Shown one piece after another: positions 12,073 to 25,522 of a stretch of 64,000 nt of DNA. How positions within the stretch are numbered: position 1 is the first letter of the stretch; each line of letters opens with the position of its first letter. The notes under the pieces were generated by a model. That model was not told the DNA's origin. It saw only the letters and a program-made list of their open reading frames with translations, and made no database searches. Origin of the DNA: Gilvimarinus gilvus. Lineage in GTDB: Bacteria > Pseudomonadota > Gammaproteobacteria > Pseudomonadales > Cellvibrionaceae. Location of the stretch: assembly GCF_030518155.1 (NCBI RefSeq), contig NZ_JAULRU010000583.1:124001-188000 (forward strand). The letters are read 5' to 3'. Both the position numbers and the translations under genes were made by a program.

Positions 12073-12675
12073 TCAGGCGTTGATGTTGAGGTCGGTGGGG
12101 TAGGTGTCGCGAATCCAGTCTGGCGGAATGGGTTGTATATTCTCAAATACGCCGTGCTTGACACTTAGGCAAAGCTTGGGCTCTTCAAAATCGACGCTGT
12201 TGTCAAAAATTTGCGCTTCATCGGCTATTTCAATGGCACGGCGAATCAGAGGGGGGCAGCGCGAGTAGCGTTCAAACACCTTGTGCGCGGGTACATTGTG
12301 GCCGCCTTCTTCGACCCGCAGCGCGACACGCGCCTGGCAAATCTCAGGGGTGGCGACACCAATATGAATGATCTTGGTGTAAAAGCCTGCCGCTTTTGCT
12401 GCGGCTACTACATCGGGCTTGCTGGGGTGGGAAAAGGTGGACTCCCAGATGAAACTGGTTTTGTTGTCTATACAATTCTGGCGCCGTTCACTGGCTATTT
12501 CAGCCGCTCGATAAGCCGCCTTCATATCGGGCTCTTCCAGTTCGAAGTACTGAATGATGTCTGCGTTTAGAAAGGGCGTTTCGCCATACTCGTGGTGCAG
12601 TTCATTGTAATAAAAGCTGGTCTTGCCTGCGCCATTGGGGCCGGCTAGGGCGATCATGAAAGGCGCAGTGTCCAT
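12073..12675 (-). CDS. Zeta-toxin-like P-loop kinase
   Basis: Small ATPase/kinase of 200 residues. The Walker A motif GPNGAGKTS lies at residues 12-20. LNADII follows, then the FIWESTFSHP segment typical of zeta-toxin and related kinases, and a basic RVALRVEEGGHNVPAHKVFERY region with the conserved G-H-V-P pattern. Zeta toxins phosphorylate UDP-N-acetylglucosamine; whether this one does is unknown. No epsilon-type antitoxin gene is visible on either side, so it may be a stand-alone member with another role. It is divergent from the glucosylglycerate operon. Confidence 0.7.
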   Translation of the reverse strand: MDTAPFMIALAGPNGAGKTSFYYNELHHEYGETPFLNADIIQYFELEEPDMKAAYRAAEIASERRQNCIDNKTSFIWESTFSHPSKPDVVAAAKAAGFYTKIIHIGVATPEICQARVALRVEEGGHNVPAHKVFERYSRCPPLIRRAIEIADEAQIFDNSVDFEEPKLCLSVKHGVFENIQPIPPDWIRDTYPTDLNINA

Positions 12676-12890
12676 AGGCTAGCTCATCAGTTAAAGATGT
12701 TTAGGGTGCCATGTGTGTACAGTGCTGATACAGTCAGTCCTAACTAACCATAGCACAGGAAGCAAAGTTCGCTTTGTAGCTGTGTTTGGGAGTGCAAGAT
12801 GGGTTGTTGGCGTCATCAAAGGGGCGAGCAATACGCGGTCGAAATTCTGGCTCAAATTGTGCTTATCATAGAAATAGAGGAGATGATGTT

Positions 12891-13856
12891 ATGCCCAATT
12901 CAAGTACCGCTCAATGGCCAGAACACCTGGCGCAGGCCTGCGATCTTAACAGCGTGCCAGCGGGAGTTGTGGAGAGTCTTTCCAAGAATCTTAAAATACC
13001 CCTGGATATTGCCCGCACCTTAGTGGCTTTTTATATGCCATTGGCCGCCTATTGTGCTGGACATTCTGGCGTAGACAGCCCGCCGTTCTTATTGGGGGTG
13101 AACGGCGCGCAGGGAACCGGTAAATCAACGGCGGCGCAAGTGGTCCAGGCTCTGCTGCAGACGGTTTATGATAAGCGTGTATGCGCCGTATCCATCGACG
13201 ACTTGTACTTGGGGCGTGCCGCCCGGCAAACGCTCAGTGCGCATATTCACCCATTGTTGGCTACCCGAGGGGTGCCCGGCACTCATGACCTGCCTTTGGC
13301 GTTGCGACTTTTTAAAAGCCTGAAAGAGTCAGATGCGAGTACCGTGACTCGCATACCGAGGTTTAATAAAGCCCTTGATGATTGCGTTGCCCAAAGTGAG
13401 TGGGATTGTTTTACCGGAAAGCCCGATGTGATTATTTTCGAAGGCTGGTGCGTAGGCGCGCGCCCGCAGCGCGCCGGAGATCTGCAGGCACCGGTCAATA
13501 ACCTGGAGGCGCATGAGGATAATGACGGCGCGTGGCGGCGTTATGTTAACGACTGTCTGCGAGATTACCAGCTCTTGTTTGATCAGATCGACTTGCTGGT
13601 TATGCTCAAGGCGCCATCGTTTGATCAGGTGCTGGAGTGGCGCCAGTTGCAGGAAGAAAAACTCCGCGCGTCACTGAGTGCAGAGGATTTGGCAAATTCT
13701 AAGGTGATGTCGGCCGATGAAATTGGCCGCTTTATTGCGCACTATGAGCGTTTAACACGCTGGATGTTAGGGGAAATGCCCGCGCGGGCCGATGTCTTGC
13801 TAACCTTGGGCAAGGATCATCAAATTGCCACGATTAAATGCCAAATTAGTGAGTAA
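12891..13856 (+). CDS. D-glycerate kinase (plant GLYK-like P-loop type)
   Basis: Predicted to phosphorylate D-glycerate, most likely to 3-phosphoglycerate; 321 residues. The Walker A GAQGTGKST is at residues 72-80, followed by VSIDDLYL and the RGVPGTHDLPLA segment typical of the P-loop glycerate kinases, then IFEGWCVGARPQ. The ATG at 12891 has GAGGAG eight bases upstream. An in-frame ATG at 12786 would add 35 poorly conserved residues. It is first in an operon with a HAD phosphatase and a glucosylglycerate-type synthase. It can supply 3-phosphoglycerate for synthesis, or recycle glycerate released by the phosphorylase at 19569-21317. Confidence 0.82.
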   Translation: MPNSSTAQWPEHLAQACDLNSVPAGVVESLSKNLKIPLDIARTLVAFYMPLAAYCAGHSGVDSPPFLLGVNGAQGTGKSTAAQVVQALLQTVYDKRVCAVSIDDLYLGRAARQTLSAHIHPLLATRGVPGTHDLPLALRLFKSLKESDASTVTRIPRFNKALDDCVAQSEWDCFTGKPDVIIFEGWCVGARPQRAGDLQAPVNNLEAHEDNDGAWRRYVNDCLRDYQLLFDQIDLLVMLKAPSFDQVLEWRQLQEEKLRASLSAEDLANSKVMSADEIGRFIAHYERLTRWMLGEMPARADVLLTLGKDHQIATIKCQISE

Positions 13857-13899
13857 TAGGCATTAACAGAAAATCATAAACCAATAACGAGGTTTTGTT

Positions 13900-14718
13900 T
13901 TGATTGCAAAAGCAGTATTTACCGATCTCGACGGTACCTTGCTAAACCACGACGATTATTCCTACGCTGACGCGCTTCCCGCTATAGAGTTTTTGCGAAA
14001 CAACCACATCCCCCTGATATTGGTGTCGAGTAAAACCCGGGCCGAAATGGCCGACCTGTGCCGCGAGCTGAGTATTACCGATCCTTACGTTTGTGAAAAC
14101 GGCAGTGTCATTGTCTTGCCTAAACCCTGGGTGGCCGAGTTTGGTGTAGACACTGAATCGCTGGCAGAGCAGAGCGATTGTTATTTAGCGTACCGTGGCG
14201 CTGACCGGGCCGCCATATTGTCTATTTTGAAGCCGTTAAAATCTCAGTTCCAATTTGCCGGCTTTTCCGACATGGATGTGGCCGACGTAATCGACTGCAC
14301 CGGTTTGTCCGAACCGGCCGCCATGAACGCGATGCGCCGCGATGCCACCGAGCCGTTGCTTTGGCACAGTGATGGGGCGCTATTGGAGCAGTTTGCCCAG
14401 TTTTTGGGCGAGAGTAAATTGCAGCTCCTCAAAGGGGGGCGTTTTTACCACGTTATGGCCCAGTGCGACAAAGGCGATGCGGTACGTTACTTGCTAAACA
14501 TATATCAGTCTCATATTGGGGCGCGGGTGCGCAGCATTGCACTGGGTGACAGCCAAAATGATTTAAAAATGTTGAAGGCGGTCGATCAAGCGGTTGTTAT
14601 GCCGCACCCAGATGGTTCATATATGAGCGATAAAGACTTAAAGGGCGAGTTGCACGCACCCTATATGGGCGCTAAAGGATGGCGAGCCGGAGTAGAGCAG
14701 GCGTTACTGCAGCTATAA
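13900..14718 (+). CDS. gpgP: Glucosyl/mannosyl-3-phosphoglycerate phosphatase (HAD-IIB)
   Basis: Removes phosphate from glucosyl- or mannosyl-3-phosphoglycerate to give the compatible solute; 272 residues. The HAD motif DLDGT lies at residues 9-13, VSSKTR is motif II, and ALGDSQNDLKML carries motifs III/IV. CENGS in the cap region fits the MpgP/YedP subgroup. The start is TTG at 13900 with GAGG seven bases upstream, a weak start that could keep the level low. It lies 43 bases after glycerate kinase and 18 before the synthase, so operon membership is clear. Glucosyl rather than mannosyl specificity is inferred from the neighbouring synthase. Confidence 0.82.
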   Translation: MIAKAVFTDLDGTLLNHDDYSYADALPAIEFLRNNHIPLILVSSKTRAEMADLCRELSITDPYVCENGSVIVLPKPWVAEFGVDTESLAEQSDCYLAYRGADRAAILSILKPLKSQFQFAGFSDMDVADVIDCTGLSEPAAMNAMRRDATEPLLWHSDGALLEQFAQFLGESKLQLLKGGRFYHVMAQCDKGDAVRYLLNIYQSHIGARVRSIALGDSQNDLKMLKAVDQAVVMPHPDGSYMSDKDLKGELHAPYMGAKGWRAGVEQALLQL

Positions 14719-14736
14719 AACTAACGAGGAAAAACC

Positions 14737-15957
14737 ATGAGTGATTTTTTTCAAAATGGCCGTATAGGAACTCTCCACAATTTGGGCAATCGCCCTATCG
14801 AAGAACTCGAAGCCGAGTTGTTGGAGTGGAGCAAACAAAAGCCTATGTGTTTGGTTTTACCTTGTTTGTATTCGGAACTGGAAGGCCCGGCAATGGACAA
14901 CATTGTTGAAGAGCTGGCCAAGGTCCCGTTTCTCGATGAAATTATTATTGGTCTTGATCGCGCAGACGAAGAGCAATATAAAAAAGCCAAGAAATTCTTT
15001 TCTCGCTTACCACAAAAACACTCCATTTTATGGAACGACGGCCCGCGCTTAAAAGCCGTTGACAAAGTGCTTGATGAAGTTGGCTTGGCGCCGCAACAAT
15101 TGGGCAAAGGCCGCAACGTTTGGTACTGCCTGGGTTACGCATTGGCCAAAGGGCGCGCTCGTGCTGTCGCTTTGCACGATTGCGATATTGTGACCTACAA
15201 GCGCGACATAGTCGCCAAACTTTTTTACCCCATTGCGCACCCCACTTTCAATTACATGTTCTGCAAGGGCTATTACTACCGCGCCGCCGGCGGCAAGTTA
15301 AACGGTCGTGTCAGTCGATTGCTGGTGTCACCCCTGGTGCGCGCCTTGCAAAAAGTCTGCGGCCACAATGATTACCTGGATTTTATCGACAGTTTTCGCT
15401 ACGCCTTGGCCGGTGAGTTTTCCATGAGTATGGACGTGGTCAGTTCAATTCGTATTCCCAGCGATTGGGGGCTGGAAATTGGCGTGTTGTCTGAAGTGAA
15501 TCGTCGCTACTCCGATGAGCGCGTCTGTCAGGTGGACATTGCCGACGCCTACGATCACAAACACCAAGACTTGTCGGCCGATAATCCCGATGGTGGCCTG
15601 TCGAAAATGAGTACCGATATATCCAAATCATTTTTTCGCAAGCTTGCCGTTAAGGGTACCGTCTTCTCGCCTGAAATGTTTCGCACCTTAAAAGCCAGTT
15701 ACTACCGGCTGGCCTTGGATTTGGTGGATCGCTATCACAATGATGCGGTTATCAATGGAATGACACTGGATCGCAACAAAGAAGAAGAAACGGTAGAGCA
15801 ATTTACCCAATGCATTATGCGTGCCGGCGAGCAGTTCTTAAATGATCCCACCGAAAAACCCTTTATGGCCAACTGGTCGCGGGTGTTAAGTGCGGTTCCC
15901 GATGTGTATTCGCGCCTGTTGGATGCGGTTGAACAGGATGGCCAAAAAATCAGTTAG
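14737..15957 (+). CDS. gpgS: Glucosyl-3-phosphoglycerate synthase (GpgS-like glycosyltransferase)
   Basis: Transfers glucose from an NDP-glucose donor to 3-phosphoglycerate, the committed step in glucosylglycerate synthesis; 406 residues, cytoplasmic. The GT-A fold shows LVLPCLYSE at the first strand and the metal-binding HDCDIV (DCD at 148-150). The conserved FCKGYYYRA and AGEFSM segments of the GpgS/MpgS group are also present. It is third in the operon with glycerate kinase and phosphatase. Glucosylglycerate is a known compatible solute in bacteria facing salt stress and nitrogen shortage. The donor sugar cannot be proved from sequence alone. Confidence 0.85.
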   Translation: MSDFFQNGRIGTLHNLGNRPIEELEAELLEWSKQKPMCLVLPCLYSELEGPAMDNIVEELAKVPFLDEIIIGLDRADEEQYKKAKKFFSRLPQKHSILWNDGPRLKAVDKVLDEVGLAPQQLGKGRNVWYCLGYALAKGRARAVALHDCDIVTYKRDIVAKLFYPIAHPTFNYMFCKGYYYRAAGGKLNGRVSRLLVSPLVRALQKVCGHNDYLDFIDSFRYALAGEFSMSMDVVSSIRIPSDWGLEIGVLSEVNRRYSDERVCQVDIADAYDHKHQDLSADNPDGGLSKMSTDISKSFFRKLAVKGTVFSPEMFRTLKASYYRLALDLVDRYHNDAVINGMTLDRNKEEETVEQFTQCIMRAGEQFLNDPTEKPFMANWSRVLSAVPDVYSRLLDAVEQDGQKIS

Positions 15958-16072: not shown

Positions 16073-17536
16073 TTATGCGTCAGACGTCCAGCCATTGGCC
16101 TTCCTGTTGATGATGCCCTGTTCTCGCCGCCGAACATCTGCAAGGAACTCTAGTGCTGACTCTTGTCCTTTTTTGATAACCTCAATCAGAGCATGTGGGT
16201 AGGCGTCGGGAAATTTTCTAAATTCATTCATGGCGTGGCCAAGCCTGCCAAGTATCCCCCACTCTTTATTAAGGAGTACAGGGTGCAAGCCTGCATTTTC
16301 CAATTCCCTATTGAAAAGCGTTTGGGCGACCCGGCCATTTCCATCTGAAAAGGGGTGAATGTCGCATATTGTCATCAGTAATAGCAGAGCTTTAGGTATA
16401 CCATTTGGAGCCTTAGGGTAGATTTCGCTAAAGAATTTCCTGATAGTGTTAGCGCACTGTTCGGGTTTTGGTCGCTCTATAATACGGGAGGCCGATGTTC
16501 TATTTTGAACAAACTTAAATTGTCCTGGGTGAAAGCCGTCGAGATTGTTGGTGGCCAGTGCGTGTACTTCTCTAAGGACAGACTCTCCTTCTGTTGCTAT
16601 CTGATATGAAGAGGCTTTTGCATGTCGCACGGAAGCAATCATATTCCTCGTTTCTACATTTTCCCTACAGGTACGGGTATTTTGCAAAATTTCATCTCTA
16701 TGGGCTATGTATTCTTCGGCAGAACCCACCACGGGTATCATAAAAAATGCTTCATACTCAGGCCAGCGTGGGTCAAGTTTACCAAGCGGCTCTAAAGGGG
16801 AGTTAAAAGCGCTCAGAGTTCGGCTATATTTTTCTAGGCGCTCTAAGGTATAAAGGTCTATGCCGAGTTGATCGTTCGGTGTGCAGTGGCTTACTTCTCG
16901 CAGGTTGTTTTCGTTTGGAGCACTAAGAAATAATTTGGTTGCTGATTGATATCGAATGTATTCATTAGCCAATAATGTAAGCACAGTTGCATCGGCTCTA
17001 TCCTCTCGAGTAGCCCTTTTGTAAGGGAATGCGGCTAAAGACTTTAAAGCATCTGTGGGTTTGGCCAGGTTGAGTTGCACTTGAGCCAGCAGAGTAAATG
17101 AAGGTGCAAGAGCGGGGTCTGCTGCTATTGATTTGTGCAAAAGGTGTTCTGCTTCCTGGTCTTTTGAAAGTCTTGTTTGGCACCTTGCCATTCTATACAA
17201 GCTGCCGGCATCTACCCGAATTTGCAATGCTCTTTGGAACAGCTGCAATGATTGACGATGCTCGCCGCTATCGAGTAGGGCATCCCCCCAGATCTGATAA
17301 GCCTGCGGTAGATTTTCGTTAATTTTCAGTGCACGCTTTGCATACTCGATGGCGCTTTTGTGCCTGCCCAACTGATTTGCCGTTTCGGCTAGGTTTACCC
17401 AGCTCTCAAACCTACCAGGTTCTAATTTTGTGGCGGAATCAAAACAAATAAAAGCGTTCTCAAATTGTCTGTTTTGAAACGCATGAAAACCGTTTGTCAT
17501 GGCCTCAAGCCAGGTTTGGCCCGATTCACTATTCAT
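16073..17536 (-). CDS. TPR-repeat Fic domain protein
   Basis: Probable protein-modifying enzyme of 487 residues with no signal peptide. Tetratricopeptide repeats fill about residues 10-170, a likely substrate-binding arm. A Fic domain follows in the C-terminal part with the full catalytic motif HPFSDGNGR at 394-402. Fic enzymes transfer a phosphate-linked group from a nucleotide (AMP, UMP or phosphocholine) to a hydroxyl on a target protein. The usual autoinhibitory SSxIEG-type motif upstream is altered to SSYQIATEG (309-317), a three-residue expansion. The gene starts 12 bases after the RuBisCO-like gene stop and belongs to the IspD-like/RLP/Fic operon. Target and donor are unknown. Confidence 0.85.
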   Translation of the reverse strand: MNSESGQTWLEAMTNGFHAFQNRQFENAFICFDSATKLEPGRFESWVNLAETANQLGRHKSAIEYAKRALKINENLPQAYQIWGDALLDSGEHRQSLQLFQRALQIRVDAGSLYRMARCQTRLSKDQEAEHLLHKSIAADPALAPSFTLLAQVQLNLAKPTDALKSLAAFPYKRATREDRADATVLTLLANEYIRYQSATKLFLSAPNENNLREVSHCTPNDQLGIDLYTLERLEKYSRTLSAFNSPLEPLGKLDPRWPEYEAFFMIPVVGSAEEYIAHRDEILQNTRTCRENVETRNMIASVRHAKASSYQIATEGESVLREVHALATNNLDGFHPGQFKFVQNRTSASRIIERPKPEQCANTIRKFFSEIYPKAPNGIPKALLLLMTICDIHPFSDGNGRVAQTLFNRELENAGLHPVLLNKEWGILGRLGHAMNEFRKFPDAYPHALIEVIKKGQESALEFLADVRRREQGIINRKANGWTSDA

Positions 17537-17548
17537 GTGAAGGCCTTT

Positions 17549-18799
17549 TTATCCCGCTTGTTCGCGGAAACACCGCGCAGCATACTCAATACCCTCGGGG
17601 TGATTGTCCAGCCAGGTAGCGGCAATAATCATAAAGTTTGCCGAGCCGAGATCAGCAATGTAGTTATTCAACTCATCAGGAATTTTGCCTCCCTGAATGA
17701 TTGGCATTGTCTGTTTGCAGCCGCCTAAAACGCTTGTACAAGCTTCAATAAAGTGAGAGTTTGATTGCGTGTTTTGATAATTGGTTGCAATGGGACCGGG
17801 GCCAACGGTAAGGTCGGCGCCGGCCAATCGGTGCAATTTTGCCATTACCCCATCGGTTGCTCCCCACTGAGCGGAGCGGGTGATAACGTCACCACAGGTG
17901 TTATGGGCAAGTATCATCATGTCGGAACGTTGACGTACTTCTGAGATGAACGACATGCCTTGAATGTAAGAGCTCACAAGAACACCGTCAACACCAGCTT
18001 TCTGTGCTTGCTCTAGCATAGGCAAGGCTGCATCTAAGTCGTCAATGATATTGGCAAAGTACAGTTTTCGCTCGCCGGTGTCATCTTCTACCTGTTTCTT
18101 CACAGTTACCATGCGTTGCACCCGATCAGCAAAAGGGGACCGATTACTGTCGTAGGTCAGCTCATCGTCCTTGATGACATCAAACCCCCCTGTTAGAACC
18201 TGTTTGTTGATTGCTAACATGGTGTTGGTATCAAGGCCATTGGCAGGGCGCATCGAGCGGCACAGGATAGGTCTGTGTGAGAATCCCAGTGTCTGTTGTA
18301 TGCCTTCTATGCCATAGCGCGGCCCGATAAATTGCTGTGCGAGGCGATTTGGAATGTCAACATCGATGAGTATTGCGCTGCTGAGAAACCCAAGGCGGTG
18401 AATTTCGCCCATTACGTTGTTCCAAATTCGGGTTAGGCGATTGCCGAATACGTGAGCGGGGTAAGCAATTACGACTCGATAAACATTGTGTTCGCCTTTG
18501 CCTAATGAGTCACCGTAGACACTTGTGTTGAGAAAATATAGCGGGCTGACGGCAACCATGTTGAAGTCTTGGGGTTCAACCGAAACAACTTTGGCTGCAA
18601 AGCTTTTTGTGTCCTCTGTTATGTCGAAGGTGGCCAACGAAGTGGCACATACACTTTGTTCCTTGGCAATACCGAATGCCGCCTGCTCGCCGTTCAGTGG
18701 GGTGCAAATATGGTAGGTTGCAAACAGGTAGTCATCTGCTTCCTGGTTGGTCCAGGTAAACAGTTGATTATCTTTGGTCGTCAAATTTTCAGAGCTCAT
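17549..18799 (-). CDS. RuBisCO-like protein (form IV type)
   Basis: Large-subunit RuBisCO superfamily member of 416 residues that is unlikely to fix CO2. The metal-site motif GGFDVIKDDE (204-213) keeps the lysine, aspartate and glutamate that hold the carbamate and Mg. AKLHRLAGAD (320-329) keeps the loop-6 lysine region, and AHNTCGD supplies a histidine. However, the TIKPKLG segment of true RuBisCO is MRPANG here (183-188), so the catalytic K175 and K177 equivalents appear to be R and A. The usual FGGGTLGHPWG phosphate loop is rewritten as MIIAATWLDNHPEG. Such proteins are isomerases or carboxy-transferring enzymes of phosphosugars. The start overlaps the IspD-like stop (ATGA), so translation is coupled. 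Confidence 0.88.
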   Translation of the reverse strand: MSSENLTTKDNQLFTWTNQEADDYLFATYHICTPLNGEQAAFGIAKEQSVCATSLATFDITEDTKSFAAKVVSVEPQDFNMVAVSPLYFLNTSVYGDSLGKGEHNVYRVVIAYPAHVFGNRLTRIWNNVMGEIHRLGFLSSAILIDVDIPNRLAQQFIGPRYGIEGIQQTLGFSHRPILCRSMRPANGLDTNTMLAINKQVLTGGFDVIKDDELTYDSNRSPFADRVQRMVTVKKQVEDDTGERKLYFANIIDDLDAALPMLEQAQKAGVDGVLVSSYIQGMSFISEVRQRSDMMILAHNTCGDVITRSAQWGATDGVMAKLHRLAGADLTVGPGPIATNYQNTQSNSHFIEACTSVLGGCKQTMPIIQGGKIPDELNNYIADLGSANFMIIAATWLDNHPEGIEYAARCFREQAG

Positions 18800-19467
18800 T
18801 GATACTTATGTCCTAATTTCGGTGCTATGACTTTTTCGGCAATGTCCCAGTCGAGCTGTGTGGTAATTTTAATGTTTTCTGCCTCGCCTGGCACCGCTGC
18901 AAGCGATTGGCACCTACTGATCACTAATTGTGCGGTTGATTGAAAAGTGTTGCCGTCTGGCGCTTGCATTGCTTTGGCCAGTACAGCGTGTGAGTATGCT
19001 TGCGGGGCTTGAAATATACCGACCTCATCGCGACGCCAAAATCTACTGACGTCGCCCCCGTTAATGCGTCCGACCGGCACTACTGGGTCGATAAATGCGC
19101 CCGCAGCGCCGTGAGCTTCGGCGGCCAAAAATACCGCTTCATGAAGCTCGCGTGACGCAAATGGGCGTGCGGCGTCTTGTATTAGGACAGTTTTTGCATC
19201 GATGGCATTGAATAAATTTGCAATGGTTCCATGTCTGGAGTTACCACCGGTAATAATGGTGCAGTCGGGCAAAAGGATTGTAGCTTGATGCTCAAAACCT
19301 TCAGGCACAGCGATTACAATGGAGTCGACGATAGGGGCTAAACTGTGTGCCACCCACTCAATCAGTGTTCGGTTGCCTAGCGTTAAAAACGCTTTAGGGC
19401 CTTTGTTTAAACGCGTACCAAGCCCCGCCGCCGGAATAATGGCGGCCCGGCGCAGGGCCTCTGCCAT
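18796..19467 (-). CDS. IspD/TarI-type cytidylyltransferase
   Basis: Nucleotidyltransferase of 223 residues, predicted to join CTP to a sugar-alcohol phosphate or similar substrate. The CTP loop is IPAAGLGTRLNKGPKAFL. The IspD family normally has PKQY/F in this loop, and here it is PKAF. QDAARPF matches the HDAARP metal site, and ENIKITTQLDWDIAE matches the C-terminal NIKVT lysine region. It opens the operon with the RuBisCO-like and Fic genes and overlaps the former by four bases. A housekeeping ispD would normally sit with ispF and ftsB, so this is probably a specialised paralogue. The substrate is unknown. Confidence 0.8.
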   Translation of the reverse strand: MAEALRRAAIIPAAGLGTRLNKGPKAFLTLGNRTLIEWVAHSLAPIVDSIVIAVPEGFEHQATILLPDCTIITGGNSRHGTIANLFNAIDAKTVLIQDAARPFASRELHEAVFLAAEAHGAAGAFIDPVVPVGRINGGDVSRFWRRDEVGIFQAPQAYSHAVLAKAMQAPDGNTFQSTAQLVISRCQSLAAVPGEAENIKITTQLDWDIAEKVIAPKLGHKYQ

Positions 19468-19568: not shown

Positions 19569-21317
19569 CTATTGTGAGCAGTAGTTGGTTAACCAAAGGT
19601 TTTGGTACGGAGCGAGTGTAATGGTGTCACACAGGTCTTCGATTGCATTGCCACTGATTAAGTCCACCCAGTTTTCCGTGCTGATCAGGTTGATATCCGC
19701 TAGGTTCAGCTGTTGGGGTTGATCGCTCAGATTATAAATGCAGAAAATGCTTTGGTTGCGCTGCATGCTCTGGCGCCAGAAGGCAAAGATTTCCGGTCGG
19801 ATGTGCAAGGTGAACTGCGTTGCATTGGGATGGAACGCAGGCTGCTTTGCGCGAATTTTGATGAGGCGTTGCAGTTCGTTAAATACGCGCTGGCCTGGAC
19901 CGTTTTCTTTTCCAAGTCGCTCATTCAAATCGCTTAAGCTCCAGTTGCAGCGGTTGATAGAGCGGTTGTGGCCGGTGGTTTTTACCTTGTCATAATCATT
20001 GTGGGTAGCAAATAGGGTGTGAATGTAAAAGGCCGGTATGCCCTCTACTGCGAGCATAATCGTTTGCGAGCTAATAAGCCGTTCCACTTGCCACTGATCG
20101 CTGCCTTTGTAGGTGCCCTTGAAGGCATCGTACAGGCTTATGTTGGCTTCATAGGGCTTACTGTTACCCTCGGCATCGGTGCGTGAGGAAATACGACCAC
20201 CAAAGGATTCCAGTGTCTGCAACATTTGTTGCAGCTCACCTTCATCAAGTAAACCCTCGGCGGGGCGAAGGCCGACACCATCGTGACTGGCGGTGAAGTT
20301 TAGGTAAGTACAGCCAACCGGCGAAGGCGGCATGGTCATCATCCACGTTTTCAGGTAGGTGCAATCACCGGCAAGTAAGGCGTGAATCACCAACGGCGGC
20401 AAGCTGAAGTTATAAATAATATGCGCTTCGTTGCTGTTGCCAAAGTAGGTTAGGTTTTCTCGATTGGGTACATTGGTCTCGCTGATAAGCAGCGCATGGG
20501 CATTTTTGTACTCGGTGAGTAGCCGTACCAGCTTAATGACTTCGTGAGTCTCGTGAAGGTGAATGCAGCTGGTACCCAATTGCTTCCATAAAAAGGCGAC
20601 GGCGTCGAGGCGAATCCACTGCGCGCCTTCGTCCAGATAGCGGCCGATGATACTGAGGTATTCCAGTAACACTTTTTCATTGCGAAAATCCACATCAACC
20701 TGATCGTGGCTGAAAGTACACCACACATGTTTGGTACCATCGGCCGTATCGGTTTTGCGCAGTAGGGGGCTGGTGCGGGGTCGTACCACGTTAGATAAAT
20801 CGTAGTTCGGATCGGCCTCTACAAAATAGCCACGTCCGGGGTCTTTGCCGTACTGGTAGTTGCGAAACCAAAGGCTCTGACTGGAGACATGGTTTATGAC
20901 CAAGTCCGCCATCAGTTTAAAATCCTGGGCGAGAGCGTTGATGTCGTCCCAGTCGCCTAATTCTGGGTCTACCTGGGTGTAATCGATAACCGCGAACCCG
21001 TCATCCGAGGAGAAGGGAAAAAACGGCAGTACATGGACGGCCGAAAATACGCCTTGCAAATGGTTGTGGAGAAAGTGCTGGAGAGTGTCTAATGGTTTGT
21101 GGCCAGCTTCGCGAATGGAATTGCCGTAGGTGATCAGCAAGCAGTCCTTTTCTGACCATAAGCGCTCGGGCGCTACTACGTCCTTGCTGATGCGCGGGCC
21201 AATAGCGGCCAAACACTGCTCTGTTAATTCCTGGGAGTCACAGTGTGGGTAAAGAGCGCCAATCAGCACGTTAACTTTATGCTTGAGCTCTTCCAGAGAG
21301 AGGAAGTCTGTGGTCAT
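19569..21317 (-). CDS. GH13_18 phosphorylase, probable glucosylglycerate phosphorylase
   Basis: Sucrose-phosphorylase-family enzyme of 582 residues, cytoplasmic. It is expected to split a glucoside with phosphate to give glucose 1-phosphate. The nucleophile aspartate is in RLDAVA (D238), the acid/base glutamate in LLISETN (E280), and the third acid in TASHDGVGLRP (D346). Members of this subgroup act on sucrose, sucrose 6-phosphate, glucosylglycerol or glucosylglycerate. The nearby GpgS-type synthase and glycerate kinase favour glucosylglycerate. The gene is 104 bases after gluconokinase and 101 before the IspD-like gene, all on one strand. The family is firm; the substrate is inferred from context. 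Confidence 0.85.
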   Translation of the reverse strand: MTTDFLSLEELKHKVNVLIGALYPHCDSQELTEQCLAAIGPRISKDVVAPERLWSEKDCLLITYGNSIREAGHKPLDTLQHFLHNHLQGVFSAVHVLPFFPFSSDDGFAVIDYTQVDPELGDWDDINALAQDFKLMADLVINHVSSQSLWFRNYQYGKDPGRGYFVEADPNYDLSNVVRPRTSPLLRKTDTADGTKHVWCTFSHDQVDVDFRNEKVLLEYLSIIGRYLDEGAQWIRLDAVAFLWKQLGTSCIHLHETHEVIKLVRLLTEYKNAHALLISETNVPNRENLTYFGNSNEAHIIYNFSLPPLVIHALLAGDCTYLKTWMMTMPPSPVGCTYLNFTASHDGVGLRPAEGLLDEGELQQMLQTLESFGGRISSRTDAEGNSKPYEANISLYDAFKGTYKGSDQWQVERLISSQTIMLAVEGIPAFYIHTLFATHNDYDKVKTTGHNRSINRCNWSLSDLNERLGKENGPGQRVFNELQRLIKIRAKQPAFHPNATQFTLHIRPEIFAFWRQSMQRNQSIFCIYNLSDQPQQLNLADINLISTENWVDLISGNAIEDLCDTITLAPYQNLWLTNYCSQ

Positions 21318-21421
21318 GGGGTGGCCTCATCGCCTGATCGAAATTTCTACTGCCAAATCAGCACCTTGCTGTTGTGCAGAACTAAGTGATCAGAGGCAAA
21401 ACTTGTGCCGCGTAGAAGGTG

Positions 21422-21961
21422 CTAGCCTAGTTTAGCTTCAATATCCCGGTAACAGCTATCAATTACACGCTCGAGCGGTGGGGTTATGTCCACGGAGATG
21501 ATGTCTGACTCCTGATTGCAGGGCTCAAGACTGTCAAATTGGCTGTCTAGTAGGCTGGTTGGCATGAAATGATCGCTGCGATCGTTCATACGCGAGGCGA
21601 TAAGCGCCTTTGAGCCTTCTAGGTGCAGGAATACAATGTTAAACGGCAATTGGCGTAACGTGTCCCGGTGGGCCTGCCTTAATCCGGAGAATGCGAGGGT
21701 ACAGCTGGTGCCTTTTTGGAAGCATTCATTTAAGTATGCACTGATGTTGTGCACCCACGGGGCGCGAAGCTCATCGGTGAGAGGGGTTCCGGCAGCCATT
21801 TGGGCTTTGGCCGCCTCGCTGTGGAAGTCATCTGCGTCGAGATAGAGGTATTGATAGTGTTGGGCAAGCGCCTTTGCCACGCTGGATTTGCCGGATCCGG
21901 AAACTCCCATCACGATAATTAGTACAGGAATGTGATCGTTATCAATTGAAGATTGGCACAT
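21422..21961 (-). CDS. gntK: Gluconokinase
   Basis: Phosphorylates D-gluconate to 6-phosphogluconate for the Entner-Doudoroff or pentose phosphate route; 179 residues. The Walker A GVSGSGKSS is at residues 19-27, with LDADDFHS, MAAGTPLTDELRAPW and CTLAFSGLRQ..RD matching GntK/IdnK. The domain after that ends HFMPTSLLDSQFDSLE, the usual lid. It is divergent from a LacI-type regulator, with an operator-like site in the gap. It explains the fate of gluconate released from cellobionate by the GH94 enzyme nearby. Confidence 0.93.
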   Translation of the reverse strand: MCQSSIDNDHIPVLIIVMGVSGSGKSSVAKALAQHYQYLYLDADDFHSEAAKAQMAAGTPLTDELRAPWVHNISAYLNECFQKGTSCTLAFSGLRQAHRDTLRQLPFNIVFLHLEGSKALIASRMNDRSDHFMPTSLLDSQFDSLEPCNQESDIISVDITPPLERVIDSCYRDIEAKLG

Positions 21962-22003
21962 GAAGGTTAACTCGGTAGTATTGGGACGCCACGTATGGGG
22001 CTA

Positions 22004-22019
22004 ATGATAGCGCAAACAT
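22004..22019. promoter_or_regulatory. LacI-type operator between gntK and its regulator
   Basis: ATGATAGCGCAAACAT is an imperfect palindrome around a central GCGC. Its left half is identical to the perfect palindrome at 27397-27412 upstream of the symporter. It lies between divergent gntK and the LacI-type gene and would serve both. Confidence 0.6.
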
Positions 22020-22065
22020 TGGGTGCTGTGCTAGTATCAATTGAAATAACAGGGGAGAATACACA

Positions 22066-23109
22066 GTGGGTAGAGCCCGCAAAAGCTCAACAAAGCGAGC
22101 GACATTGGCCGACGTGGCAAAGGTGGCTAATGTTAGTGCCATCACTGTTTCACGAGTCATCAATCAACCGGGCAAGGTGTCTCCTGAGCTGGGGCAGCGC
22201 GTGCAAGAAGCGATTGATATGCTGGGCTATATTCCCAACCAGTCTGCCAGCTCCCTGGCGTCAGCGCGCTCTGGCGTTATAGGGGTTTCGATCCCCTCGC
22301 TCTCCAATGTTGTGTTTAATGATGTGTTGCGTGGGATCTACGATGTAGCCGGTGCCAGTGACTACAAGGTGCTGTTGGTGGATACGCATTATTCTCCCCT
22401 TGAAGAAGAGAAAATGGTGCGCACTCTGCTAAGTCAATCGCCCGAGGCAATGATCATTACCGGCGGGGATCAAACCCGTGCCTGTGAGCGCATGTTGGCA
22501 AAAGCGGGCATGCCGGTTGTGCAAATAATGGAGCTTTTGGAGCAGCCCCTTGATATGAATGTGGGATTTTCACATTATCAGGCGGGTTATGACGTTGCTC
22601 TGAAAATGTTGGCAACCGGTTGTAACCAATTGGGCTTTGTCGGTGCGCGTATGGATGCACGTGTACAACAACGTATGGCGGGCTTTGTCGACGCCTTGCG
22701 TGCGAAAAATAAGTTGAATCAGGAGTATATTGTCACGACACCTGAGCCGTCTTCGATTGCGTTGGGTGGCGAGTTGTTCCGCAGCTTACTCAGTGCATCG
22801 TCAGGCGCCGTGGACGGCATTTTTTGCTGCAACGATGACCTTGCTCTCGGCGCGTTATTTGAAAGCCAGCGTATGAATATAAAAATTCCTACGGAAATGT
22901 CGCTGTGTGGTTTTAACGATTTTGAAACATCGGCTTACGTTAATCCGTCATTGTCGAGTGTGCATGTGCCGCGTTATGAAATGGGTGTTAAAGCGGCTGA
23001 AATGATCATCAACGTGCTGAATGATAAAGGCGTTGCGGACAAAACACTCGACATAGGATTCGAGGTGATATTACGCCAATCGTCGAGGGCGTCAGTACCA
23101 CCGCAGTAA
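22066..23109 (+). CDS. LacI/GalR-family transcriptional regulator (GntR-like)
   Basis: Sugar-responsive repressor of 347 residues. The helix-turn-helix at residues 13-40 reads TLADVAKVANVSAITVSRVI, followed by the hinge NQSASSLAS and a periplasmic-binding-like sensor domain. The start is GTG at 22066 with AGGGGAGA eight bases upstream. It is divergent from gluconokinase and convergent with the GH94 gene. The similarity and placement match gluconate-type LacI regulators, so gluconate, 6-phosphogluconate or cellobionate is the likely effector. Two related palindromes, at 22004 and 27397, are its probable binding sites. Confidence 0.88.
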   Translation: MGRARKSSTKRATLADVAKVANVSAITVSRVINQPGKVSPELGQRVQEAIDMLGYIPNQSASSLASARSGVIGVSIPSLSNVVFNDVLRGIYDVAGASDYKVLLVDTHYSPLEEEKMVRTLLSQSPEAMIITGGDQTRACERMLAKAGMPVVQIMELLEQPLDMNVGFSHYQAGYDVALKMLATGCNQLGFVGARMDARVQQRMAGFVDALRAKNKLNQEYIVTTPEPSSIALGGELFRSLLSASSGAVDGIFCCNDDLALGALFESQRMNIKIPTEMSLCGFNDFETSAYVNPSLSSVHVPRYEMGVKAAEMIINVLNDKGVADKTLDIGFEVILRQSSRASVPPQ

Positions 23110-23116
23110 TTTGTGT

Positions 23117-23153
23117 CGGGTGATATGGTTGGCGCGACCATATCACCCGTTTT
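23117..23153 (+). terminator. Terminator between the LacI-type gene and GH94 gene
   Basis: A perfect 13-base-pair stem, CGGGTGATATGGT with ACCATATCACCCG, and a 7-base loop are followed by TTTT. It lies between convergent genes and could serve both directions. Confidence 0.8.
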
Positions 23154-23155
23154 AC

Positions 23156-25522
23156 TCACTGCGTTCCCAGCAGTACTTCCACGTTATATTCTTGCCCTGA
23201 CTTGGGAGCGAGCAGCTTAAACACTGATTGAGTGACGCCGTTAACCTTCAGTGAAGATTTTCCCGCTACACGTGTATAGGTAACGTGCACGGTGGCGCCG
23301 CGAAACTGGCGGGTCACTTTTGCACTGTTCCAGCCCGAGGGTAATTGCGGGCGAATGATTAGATCCTGCCCCTCGCCGCGCAAACCAAACAGGCCATCCA
23401 GCAGTGACCGATACACCCAGCTAACCGTACCGGTGTTAAACAGTTGGCTGGAGCGACCGGCGGTGCGGGGAAACTGGTAGTAGGCGCCACGATAGTAGTT
23501 AGGGATATACACAGGCATTTGGCCGCGTTGAGTATAGTCGTCGGTATCTGGCCCCGGCAGCATTTGTCGCAGTAGTTTGAATGCCTTGTCCGCTTCACCG
23601 ATACTGTAAAGGCTGTAAATGTAAAAAATCGCCGCGTGGTTGTAGACCGAACCATTTTCAGCCGAACCGGGATGCTTTTGCGTGACCCGACCAACGTCCT
23701 CGCGCATGGCGGTAAAGGCGGGTGCCAGCATGGCGACCCCGTAGGGTGTTTCCAGTTGCTGCTCTACATTCTCTAACATGGTACGGCGTTGCTCCGCACT
23801 GCACGTATTGGCGAGAATGGCCCAGCTCTGCGGGTTGAGAAAAATGCGACCTTCTAAATCTTTACTGATGCCAAAAACAACGTCGTCGTCAGTGATGCCA
23901 CGCCCGTACCACTGGCCATCCCACAGGTGTTTGTTGACCGCATTGTTGATTTCGGTTGCGCCGCTGCGAAATTCGTCTGCGTTACCGAGACCCTTTTTCT
24001 CGCACAGATCGGCCCAAAGGTTAAGCGCGTAGGCTGTGGCGACACTGAGCCAGCCGGATACGCCTTTACCTTTGTAACCCACCATATTCATCGGGTCGCA
24101 CCAATCGCCCTGAGCGATATAGGACAGCCCGCGCTCGTCGCGCGCCTGCAGCAACCAGCGCATTGCGTTACTGATGCGCGCGGCGACGGTGAGCGATTTT
24201 CCGTCAGAACCCGTGACTGATTCGGCGAGAAGGTCAAAGTCTCCGGTTTCATCCAAATACGCCTGTAAACACACCGGTAGCCAAACGCAGTGATCGGTGT
24301 GCGGCACCTGATTGATGTATTTTAACTCGGCATCTTCGTGTAACAGGATACCGTCTGGCATTGCACCTGTGTCTTCCTGTTGGCTCAGTGCGTGAACAAA
24401 TGCGTGGCGAGCGACCGCTGGGTTGATGTAGCTCATGCCCATGTTGTCTTGCAGGTAGTTGCGTGTTTGCGGGTCGGTTGTCAGACGGTTGACGTCACCG
24501 TGGTAAAACACCTGGCGAGCGAGCCAGTTGTTAACAAAATTGTCCAGAGTTTTATCCGGTGTATCTATCTGTAGTACACCAGTACCTTGGGCAAGGTAGT
24601 CACGGTAGTCTTGTTTGGCCTTAGCAAACCCTGCGGGGGTCAAATAGCGCTCGCGAATATTGGCAATTTCTTCCAAATCTTTGGCCGGGCCAAAAGCAAA
24701 GCGCAACGTGGAGATATCTTCCGCGTCCAAACAGAGGCGGTATTGTACGGCGGCCAATGGCGTTTCGTAACGTGCGTCGTTGCATGGCAGTATTGGTTCA
24801 CGCAGTGCATCCGGGTTGTGTAAGCCGCCTTCGCCTTCAAACGTTTCTCTTTGTAGGTGCCACGCTGTCGGCGCGGTCTCGCACAACAGATAAGTTTTGT
24901 CTTTAAAGTGTTGGTTTTTAAAGTAGTCAGGGTATTTTTGATAAGGTGTGACGCAGCTGGCAACAACCGCATTCAAGTCGCTGTTGTACTCGGCACTCTG
25001 GTTCATCCAACTCATATAGCCGGGGGTGAAATAGGGGATAACACTGATTTTGCGTTCCCGTCCCGACGTGTTTTCAATTCGGCACTGCCAAAGCTCCACT
25101 ACGTCATCTACCGGCAAGCTAAGTGACAGGTGCACCGTAATCCCCAAGTGCTGAACGTGCCAGCGAATATCACTCTGCCCGGTAATAAATTCAAAGTGGT
25201 CGAGTTCTCCGCGAACTGGTTCGTAGGGCGCTGAAAAAAGCTCGCCAGTTTCATCATCCCTAATATAGAAAAAGCGGCCCGGGTGGTGCGCGTAATAGGG
25301 CTGTTCTGGTTGCATGAATGTTTTTGCTTCCAGGTTTGGCGCATAGGCGTACTTGGCCGGCTCCGGCTGCATAAATTGTGCAACGGCGTAGCCTCGACAA
25401 TTCATCTGGATCATCATTTTTTGGTTCCAGAGAAAGCCGGCCGCGCGTGGCATCATGGTGGGGCTGGTTAAGTGAAAATCTTGGCCGTCGTCTGAGGCGA
25501 ATAACTTAGGATCTAATGACAT
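23156..25522 (-). CDS. GH94 phosphorylase, probable cellobionic acid phosphorylase
   Basis: Cytoplasmic phosphorylase of 788 residues that splits a beta-glucoside with phosphate to glucose 1-phosphate and the aglycone sugar. The catalytic acid region is QGDWCDPMN (about 471-479), where cellobiose phosphorylases have DWND. The variation here and the length fit the cellobionate group found in Saccharophagus. [16 protein letters not shown] and [11 protein letters not shown] are the usual GH94 phosphate and sugar loops. Gluconokinase and a gluconate-type regulator lie beside it and the symporter precedes it, consistent with using cellobionate made by lytic polysaccharide monooxygenases. A terminator-like hairpin lies directly before the start. 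Confidence 0.87.

Follow-up and report, generated by a model that had tools for sequence, protein, structure and literature searches.

A putative protein-tagging operon joining an IspD-like cytidylyltransferase to a TPR-Fic protein in Gilvimarinus

We describe here an operon in a 64,000-nucleotide stretch of the Gilvimarinus gilvus genome (Cellvibrionaceae; NCBI RefSeq assembly GCF_030518155.1, contig NZ_JAULRU010000583.1, positions 124,001 to 188,000 of the forward strand; hereafter the window) that looks like an undescribed, putative protein-tagging system. Three genes encode an IspD-like cytidylyltransferase, a RuBisCO-like protein (RLP) and a protein in which TPR repeats precede a Fic domain (TPR-Fic; Table 1). 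The constant core is the cytidylyltransferase-Fic pair, present in five of eight Gilvimarinus genomes, and the RLP gene is an insert at three of these five loci. The reading that we tentatively prefer, with a little less than even confidence, is that the IspD-like enzyme makes a CDP-linked donor, CDP-X, that the TPR-Fic protein, acting like Doc and AnkX, moves phospho-X from this donor onto a protein bound by its TPR arm, and that the RLP, where present, changes X.

Results

An IspD-like gene and a TPR-Fic gene form a conserved unit

The operon had been read from the nucleotide sequence as three minus-strand genes with a 4-base ATGA overlap (IspD-like/RLP, 18796-18799) and a 12-base gap (RLP/TPR-Fic); all three were confirmed at these positions, and Pfam confirmed the families. 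The gap contains AAAGG. None of the three proteins reached a curated NCBIfam equivalog cut-off. The IspD-like protein scored 116.7 bits against TIGR00453, the IspD equivalog (cut-off 181.3), and passed the cut-off of PF01128, and the RLP lay far under the RuBisCO, MtnW and OiaX cut-offs (TIGR03332, 117 of 514; NF042437 (OiaX), 124 of 700). PF02661 scored above its cut-off in the window protein and in both RLP-less relatives described below, placing them in the Fic family.

The adjacency search that the original prediction had proposed recovered the trio beyond the window genome, in the same order, in Gilvimarinus polysaccharolyticus YN3 and G. chinensis DSM 19667, that is, in three of eight Gilvimarinus genomes. 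Spacing in the three genomes was -4, -4 and +1 bases between the IspD-like and RLP genes and +12, +4 and +4 bases between the RLP and Fic genes; identity was 68-73% for the IspD-like protein and the RLP and 44-51% for the Fic protein. Synonymous sites were saturated in all whole-gene pairs but one (pN/pS 0.20-0.49 in the saturated pairs; dN/dS 0.14 in the single unsaturated pair), and the data indicate that all three trio genes are under purifying selection.

Searching 143 genomes of the family with a profile of the Fic part returned six matching genomes: the three with the trio, two further Gilvimarinus genomes (G006, 161 bits; G001, 148 bits), and one, G039, in which the match was an ordinary Fic protein. 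In G006 and G001 (loci L138 and L139) the IspD-like gene directly precedes the Fic gene, with a 4-base overlap in each, and the RLP is absent; both pairs adjoin GpgS, the same locus as that of the window's operon. The proteins of these pairs matched the Pfam models of IspD (99 and 111 bits), of Fic (28 bits each) and of TPR. Identity between the trio type and the RLP-less type was 43-47% for the IspD-like protein and 25-28% for the Fic protein. Because the RLP is absent from two of the five loci, we took the pair as the core and dismissed the view that the three enzymes form an obligatory unit. The pair has remained one tight unit in five of eight genomes despite this deep divergence, which speaks for a functional coupling of the kind that we prefer.

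Table 1. Genes, domains and motifs of the operon, in window coordinates
Feature	Position	Strand	Basis
IspD-like cytidylyltransferase, 223 amino acids, first gene	18796..19467	-	PF01128, 109 bits
RLP, 416 amino acids, middle gene	17549..18799	-	PF00016, 80 bits; PF02788, 22 bits
TPR-Fic protein, 487 amino acids, third gene	16073..17536	-	PF02661, 37 bits; many TPR models
TPR superhelix (about residues 1-200) and Fic domain (about residues 260-470) of the TPR-Fic protein			TPR models; PF02661
Fic motif HPFSDGNGRVAQ (residues 394-405), last position Q	16322..16357	-	39 of 39 compared Fic open reading frames have Arg
FMIPVVG (residues 265-271), aligned with the inhibitory (S/T)xxxE(G/N) helix, Glu replaced	16724..16744	-	Alignments
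RLP KDDE motif (residues 210-213), carbamate/metal site, kept	18161..18172	-	29-row alignment
RLP Arg184 at the K175-equivalent place	18248..18250	-	Arg in all 3 trio RLPs, Lys in all 26 others aligned
RLP Ala394-Thr395 at the phosphate-site Gly-Gly	17615..17620	-	Of the 26 others, all keep the first Gly and 23 have the second

The Fic proteins of the operon lack the last Arg of the motif

We compared the five Fic proteins with 39 distinct open reading frames (ORFs) drawn from 42 loci, of which 37 contributed (four more only repeat ORFs of the set, and L108 has no motif ORF), all chosen by a pattern that leaves the last position of GNGRxxR free. The last Arg was present in all 39, and in 37 of 38 distinct Fic ORFs from viral contigs, and was lost in all five proteins here, where it is replaced by Q, L and I in the trio type and by M in both of the pair type. 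Upstream, 32 of the 39 carry (S/T)xxxE(G/N) and seven do not; in our five the aligned inhibitory stretch reads F-M-I-P and the Glu is replaced by V, V, T, I and I. The five therefore show neither hallmark of AMP-transferring Fic proteins (last Arg, inhibitory motif), nor do they show the GNKR of Doc, having GNGR throughout. H394, G399, N400, G401 and R402 are invariant among them, which speaks against a dead Fic enzyme.

In a Fic tree, in which long branches were flagged, the five formed a clade of their own (support 100/99) beside six Fic proteins that have both Arg and Glu (99/97). As these sister proteins keep both residues, both were probably lost on the branch of the five. According to the excerpts of PMC12409994 and PMC4454073 (all papers here are cited from excerpts), the inhibitory Glu and the last Arg form a salt bridge and the Arg binds the gamma-phosphate of ATP; PMC4177925 and PMC4454073 describe Doc motifs without the last Arg, and donors held inverted by Doc and AnkX. 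Since CDP-X would lack a gamma-phosphate, losing Arg and Glu together fits a donor of this kind.

Structure prediction for the TPR-Fic protein was of middling quality (mean predicted local distance difference test score, pLDDT, 66); its TPR part matched TPR folds. This comparison covered residues 1-195, barely reaching the Fic part, and no Fic entry was among its best 50 rows.

The IspD-like proteins appear to differ from canonical IspD in the substrate pocket

The original prediction presupposed that the operon gene is not the only ispD of its genome, and a separate canonical ispD (238 bits) indeed adjoins ispF in the window genome. We therefore rejected the IspD-like gene as the housekeeping ispD, and as a paralogue, at 27-31% identity to that gene's product, it would be free for another substrate. 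We read its residues from alignments with E. coli IspD and with the genome's own ispD, paying attention to T140, R157, T165 and T189, which we take to be residues of the methylerythritol phosphate (MEP) site of IspD. The place of T140 holds no Thr in any of the five IspD-like proteins; that of R157 reads R, H, R, K and S; and at that of T165 all three trio proteins have Ala and both RLP-less proteins Thr. Equivalents of R20, K27 and K213 are kept in all five, and D106 and R109 in the trio proteins (Thr189 and Lys213 of IspD are treated in the excerpt of PMC13071607). The pocket appears to differ from that of ispD, and also between the trio and RLP-less types, which would fit a change of X with the RLP.

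The RLP is divergent and absent from two of five loci

For the RLP we built a tree of 29 rows (the three trio RLPs and 26 of 39 matches, after dropping duplicates and lengths outside 360-560 amino acids). The stem leading to the trio RLPs is 2.36 changes per column long, and support for their nearest neighbour is weak (81/77); the nearest PDB sequences are 2qyg and 1tel. Using RuBisCO residue numbers that we presume to be K175, K334 and H294, the H294 equivalent is kept in all three. None has Lys at the loop-6 place (K334); with this, the Arg at the K175 place and Ala-Thr for the phosphate-site Gly-Gly, they do not answer to the description of a carboxylating RuBisCO. It is possible that the RLP acts on a CDP-linked substrate, its phosphate site having been remodelled. 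The structure predicted for it was of poor quality (mean pLDDT 45) and was set aside.

The original prediction had coupled a maker of a CDP donor to a Fic protein and had made the RLP the necessary source of a phosphosugar. The coupling gained from the direct joining of the two genes in two genomes and from the loss of the Arg that binds the ATP gamma-phosphate. The necessity of the RLP was not supported: it is absent from two of five loci and, where present, the equivalents of K175 and of the first phosphate-site Gly are replaced.

Distribution outside the genus

Searches outside Gilvimarinus rested on three-row profiles and sampled genomes. Trio-type RLPs were found in three of 144 family genomes, all Gilvimarinus; in an earlier search of 97 genomes the fourth RLP match was a distant RuBisCO (50 bits). 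With the window genome included, RLP matches were found in 155 of 369 genomes of the class at E 1e-15, six of 390 of the order at 1e-30 and two of 398 of the phylum at 1e-45. Beyond the trio, no match in the sampled class, order and phylum exceeded 207 bits; the trio RLPs themselves reached about 890-898 bits. The best RLP outside the genus (L044, 207 bits) has GAPDH-like and aldo-keto-reductase-like neighbours, named by eye, and the short L044 contig carries neither IspD nor Fic. As an observation of its own, this divergent gammaproteobacterial RLP between the two genes (L044, 1487-2860) is possibly an undescribed RLP context.

In 13 stretches around RLPs from outside the genus (the RLP ORF was picked in nine) none had a Fic match, and the sole IspD match was the window genome's own canonical ispD. 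Scanning a viral collection with three-row Fic-part, IspD and RLP alignments gave no relatives; a five-row TPR-Fic alignment found 44 Fic loci on viral contigs, with an IspD-like ORF among none of 831 ORFs. Plasmid tblastn gave only distant RLP, Fic and IspD matches. After these viral scans and the plasmid search we rejected a phage or plasmid counterpart of the system. A scan of contigs with N-terminal patterns returned only two loci already known, and literature searches on the gene set found no description of an IspD-like/RLP/TPR-Fic combination. Among PADLOC models, the Fic domain weakly matched SoFic and PDC-S04 (best 35 bits) and the RLP and IspD-like proteins matched nothing; on this comparison a known phage-defence system was provisionally rejected as the identity of the operon.

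The locus and its history

A GH13 sucrose-phosphorylase-like gene (19569-21317) lies upstream of the operon, and a GpgS-like gene with further metabolic genes lies convergent downstream. These flanks are better conserved than the operon (in G. chinensis, GpgS 95%, GH13 84%, trio 45-71%), and the flanking GpgS and GH13 genes also occur without it. Counts of promoters and terminators around the operon showed no excess over shuffled sequence, and upstream regions aligned across the loci had only short blocks of sequence in common.

The flanks hold glucosylglycerate-like and gluconate-like gene sets (12786-15957 and 19569-25522; some names inferred), the former with kinase-like, MPG-phosphatase-like, GpgS-like and GH13 phosphorylase-like genes, the latter with gluconokinase, a GntR-type regulator and a 788-amino-acid gene product taken for a phosphorylase. 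A zeta-toxin/AAA-type kinase gene (12073-12675; PF06414, 37 bits) is also found beside the GpgS cluster in L138 and L139.

The interval from GH13 to GpgS is variable, with two-partner-secretion (TPS) genes, LuxR genes, a GH13 remnant and the pair each present in some genomes and missing from others. In G. chinensis the sequence immediately upstream of the trio is the C-terminal quarter of a second GH13 gene (L013, 6757-7188; 144 residues, 62.5% identity), from which the order GH13-then-operon is probably ancestral there. A short TPS-domain ORF beside the same trio (L013, 4994-5521) makes, with the GH13 remnant, traces of insertion or duplication and decay. In G. polysaccharolyticus (L012, 6980-7333) the GH13 gene between gntK and the operon is missing, and the trio directly follows the gluconokinase gene.

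In G006 the pair is followed by a LuxR-type gene and then by a divergent TPS-domain gene, which scores 119.6 bits and runs off the contig; upstream of the G. chinensis trio there are a LuxR gene and a fragment with a TPS domain; and in G. polysaccharolyticus a complete exoprotein gene (1966 amino acids; TPS, GLUG, MBG and OmpA domains) and a ShlB-type transporter gene converge on the trio. Only LuxR adjoins the pair in G001, and neither TPS nor LuxR adjoins the operon in the window, in whose genome a ShlB-type gene is on another contig. In G002 TPS and LuxR occupy this place and the pair is absent. By its position near three of five loci a TPS exoprotein is a candidate target of the Fic protein, and a weak one, because G002 has TPS and LuxR without the pair and the window locus has neither.

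Apart from this, two contigs of G. polysaccharolyticus carry ShlB-type genes of equal length and equal profile score (L084, 14640-16301; L082, 9978-11639), whose products are identical over the first 50 residues; each follows an exoprotein gene of about 2000 amino acids, and one of the two sets lies next to the trio. The sets look recently duplicated.

Discussion

In the mechanism that we tentatively prefer, the IspD-like enzyme would use CTP and X-P, a small phosphorylated molecule that is probably not MEP, to make CDP-X. The TPR-Fic protein would hold CDP-X as Doc and AnkX hold their donors, turned round in comparison with AMP-transferring Fic proteins, and would move phospho-X to a side-chain hydroxyl of a cytoplasmic protein that the TPR arm has bound, releasing CMP. 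Recruitment of a target by a TPR domain is described for FICD (PMC12409994, excerpt). In three species the RLP would probably alter X, either before activation or on CDP-X. A fuller version, in which a Fic module with a dedicated donor and an IspD-type maker of CDP-X acts on a target of its own cell, perhaps a TPS exoprotein before export, with the RLP diversifying the tag, seems to us possible and somewhat less probable than the outline.

Several observations weigh against phospho-X transfer from CDP-X. The loss of the Glu hinges on a one-residue alignment, for in three of the five Fic proteins the residue that follows the replaced Glu is acidic, and the window protein has one chance (S/T)xxxE(G/N) match elsewhere. 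All five carry the HxFx(D/E)GNGR motif, and one of them has Asn for the metal-binding Asp (HPFSNGNGR), a substitution that Doc motifs permit. D106 and R109 are N and S in the two RLP-less IspD-like proteins, which could mean weakened catalysis, and the place of T189 depends on the alignment, reading Gln against E. coli IspD and Thr before a two-residue deletion against the own ispD. The PDB search with the Fic part listed 41 rows at E up to 1, none of them AnkX, and the whole system was not seen outside Gilvimarinus in the sampled genomes. The missing Arg and Glu are also compatible with an enzyme that is dead or with an altered AMP transferase, and both of these lead to rival explanations.

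The foremost rival, which we consider unlikely, is that the IspD-like protein, in some species with the RLP, supplies a surface glycan or lipid with a CDP-linked precursor, and that the TPR-Fic protein is dead or weak and serves as scaffold or sensor. The pathways that known IspD-type enzymes supply are isoprenoid and teichoic-acid-like, the PDB matches of the IspD-like protein include TarI-type entries, and loss of the last Arg, seen here in all five proteins, is discussed as possibly inactivating in the excerpt of PMC4454073. Glycosyl- or phosphopolyol-transferase genes are found in the operon at none of the five loci, however, and H394, N400, G401 and R402 have stayed invariant although about three quarters of positions differ between the two types.

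Slightly less probable again is an ordinary-orientation nucleotidyl transferase that moves AMP from ATP, or CMP from CTP or CDP-X, and regulates neighbouring enzymes or another protein. Its core, HPFxDGNGR, is of the AMP-transfer type and not Doc's GNKR, and the PDB search with the Fic part gave as its best matches an AMP-type Fic entry and FICD. Cells with FICD R374H contain more AMPylated BiP (PMC12409994, excerpt); as this variant still AMPylates, loss of the Arg is no proof of a changed donor. This rival has to account for an Arg lost in five of five proteins and kept in 39 of 39 others, and leaves unexplained why a donor-type gene is joined to Fic at all five loci.

It is improbable that the acceptor to which the Fic protein moves phospho-X (or CMP) is a small molecule, lipid or glycan, with the TPR arm binding a partner enzyme: sugar-metabolic genes do neighbour the locus, but they are better conserved than the operon and occur without it, and the Fic acceptors in the cited excerpts are proteins. 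Least probable of all is a gathering of unrelated passenger genes in a chromosomal region of variable content, given that the IspD-like and Fic genes are one unit at five of five loci despite deep divergence and that purifying selection acts on the trio genes.

Should transfer of phospho-X from CDP-X prove right, the operon would encode a Fic enzyme that works inside the cell that makes it, on a CDP-linked donor made for the purpose, in contrast to AnkX, the CDP-donor (CDP-choline) case in the cited excerpts, which is an injected effector. As a defined unit of two genes it would also be a starting point in the search for a new protein modification; the joint loss of Glu and Arg may then serve as a sequence rule that marks Fic enzymes with other donors; and one RLP clade would gain a possible job other than carbon fixation or salvage.

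Compared with known systems, the IspD-like protein shares its family and the CTP-site residues with the IspD/TarI/ISPD cytidylyltransferases, and differs from them in falling under the ispD equivalog cut-off and in the changes at T140 (five of five) and T165 (three of five). The RLP has both RuBisCO domains and the KDDE site of form IV RLPs (nearest the IV-Photo type, 2qyg and 1tel), but is only 25-30% identical to the nearest RLPs outside the genus and has K175 changed to R and GG to AT; two plasmid RLP operons have a sugar-acid kinase neighbour, and none stands beside the RLP here. The nearest clade to the Fic proteins consists of bacterial Fic proteins of a wHTH type or AbiEi-like (L054-L057, L074 and L075); these are alignable from the inhibitory helix onward, but keep SNFIEG/SNYIEG and the last Arg, and are without TPR or an IspD-like neighbour in the stretches examined. 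FICD/HYPE has the same order of N-terminal TPR and then Fic, but possesses R374 and E234 according to the cited excerpts, the equivalents of which are lost here. With the AnkX phosphocholine transferase, as the excerpts describe it, the operon's Fic protein shares the Fic core, a repeat domain joined to it and, as proposed here, the class of CDP-linked donor; it differs in having TPR in place of ankyrin repeats and a donor-making gene in its operon. The proposed system would thus be AnkX-like in donor type and FICD-like in architecture.

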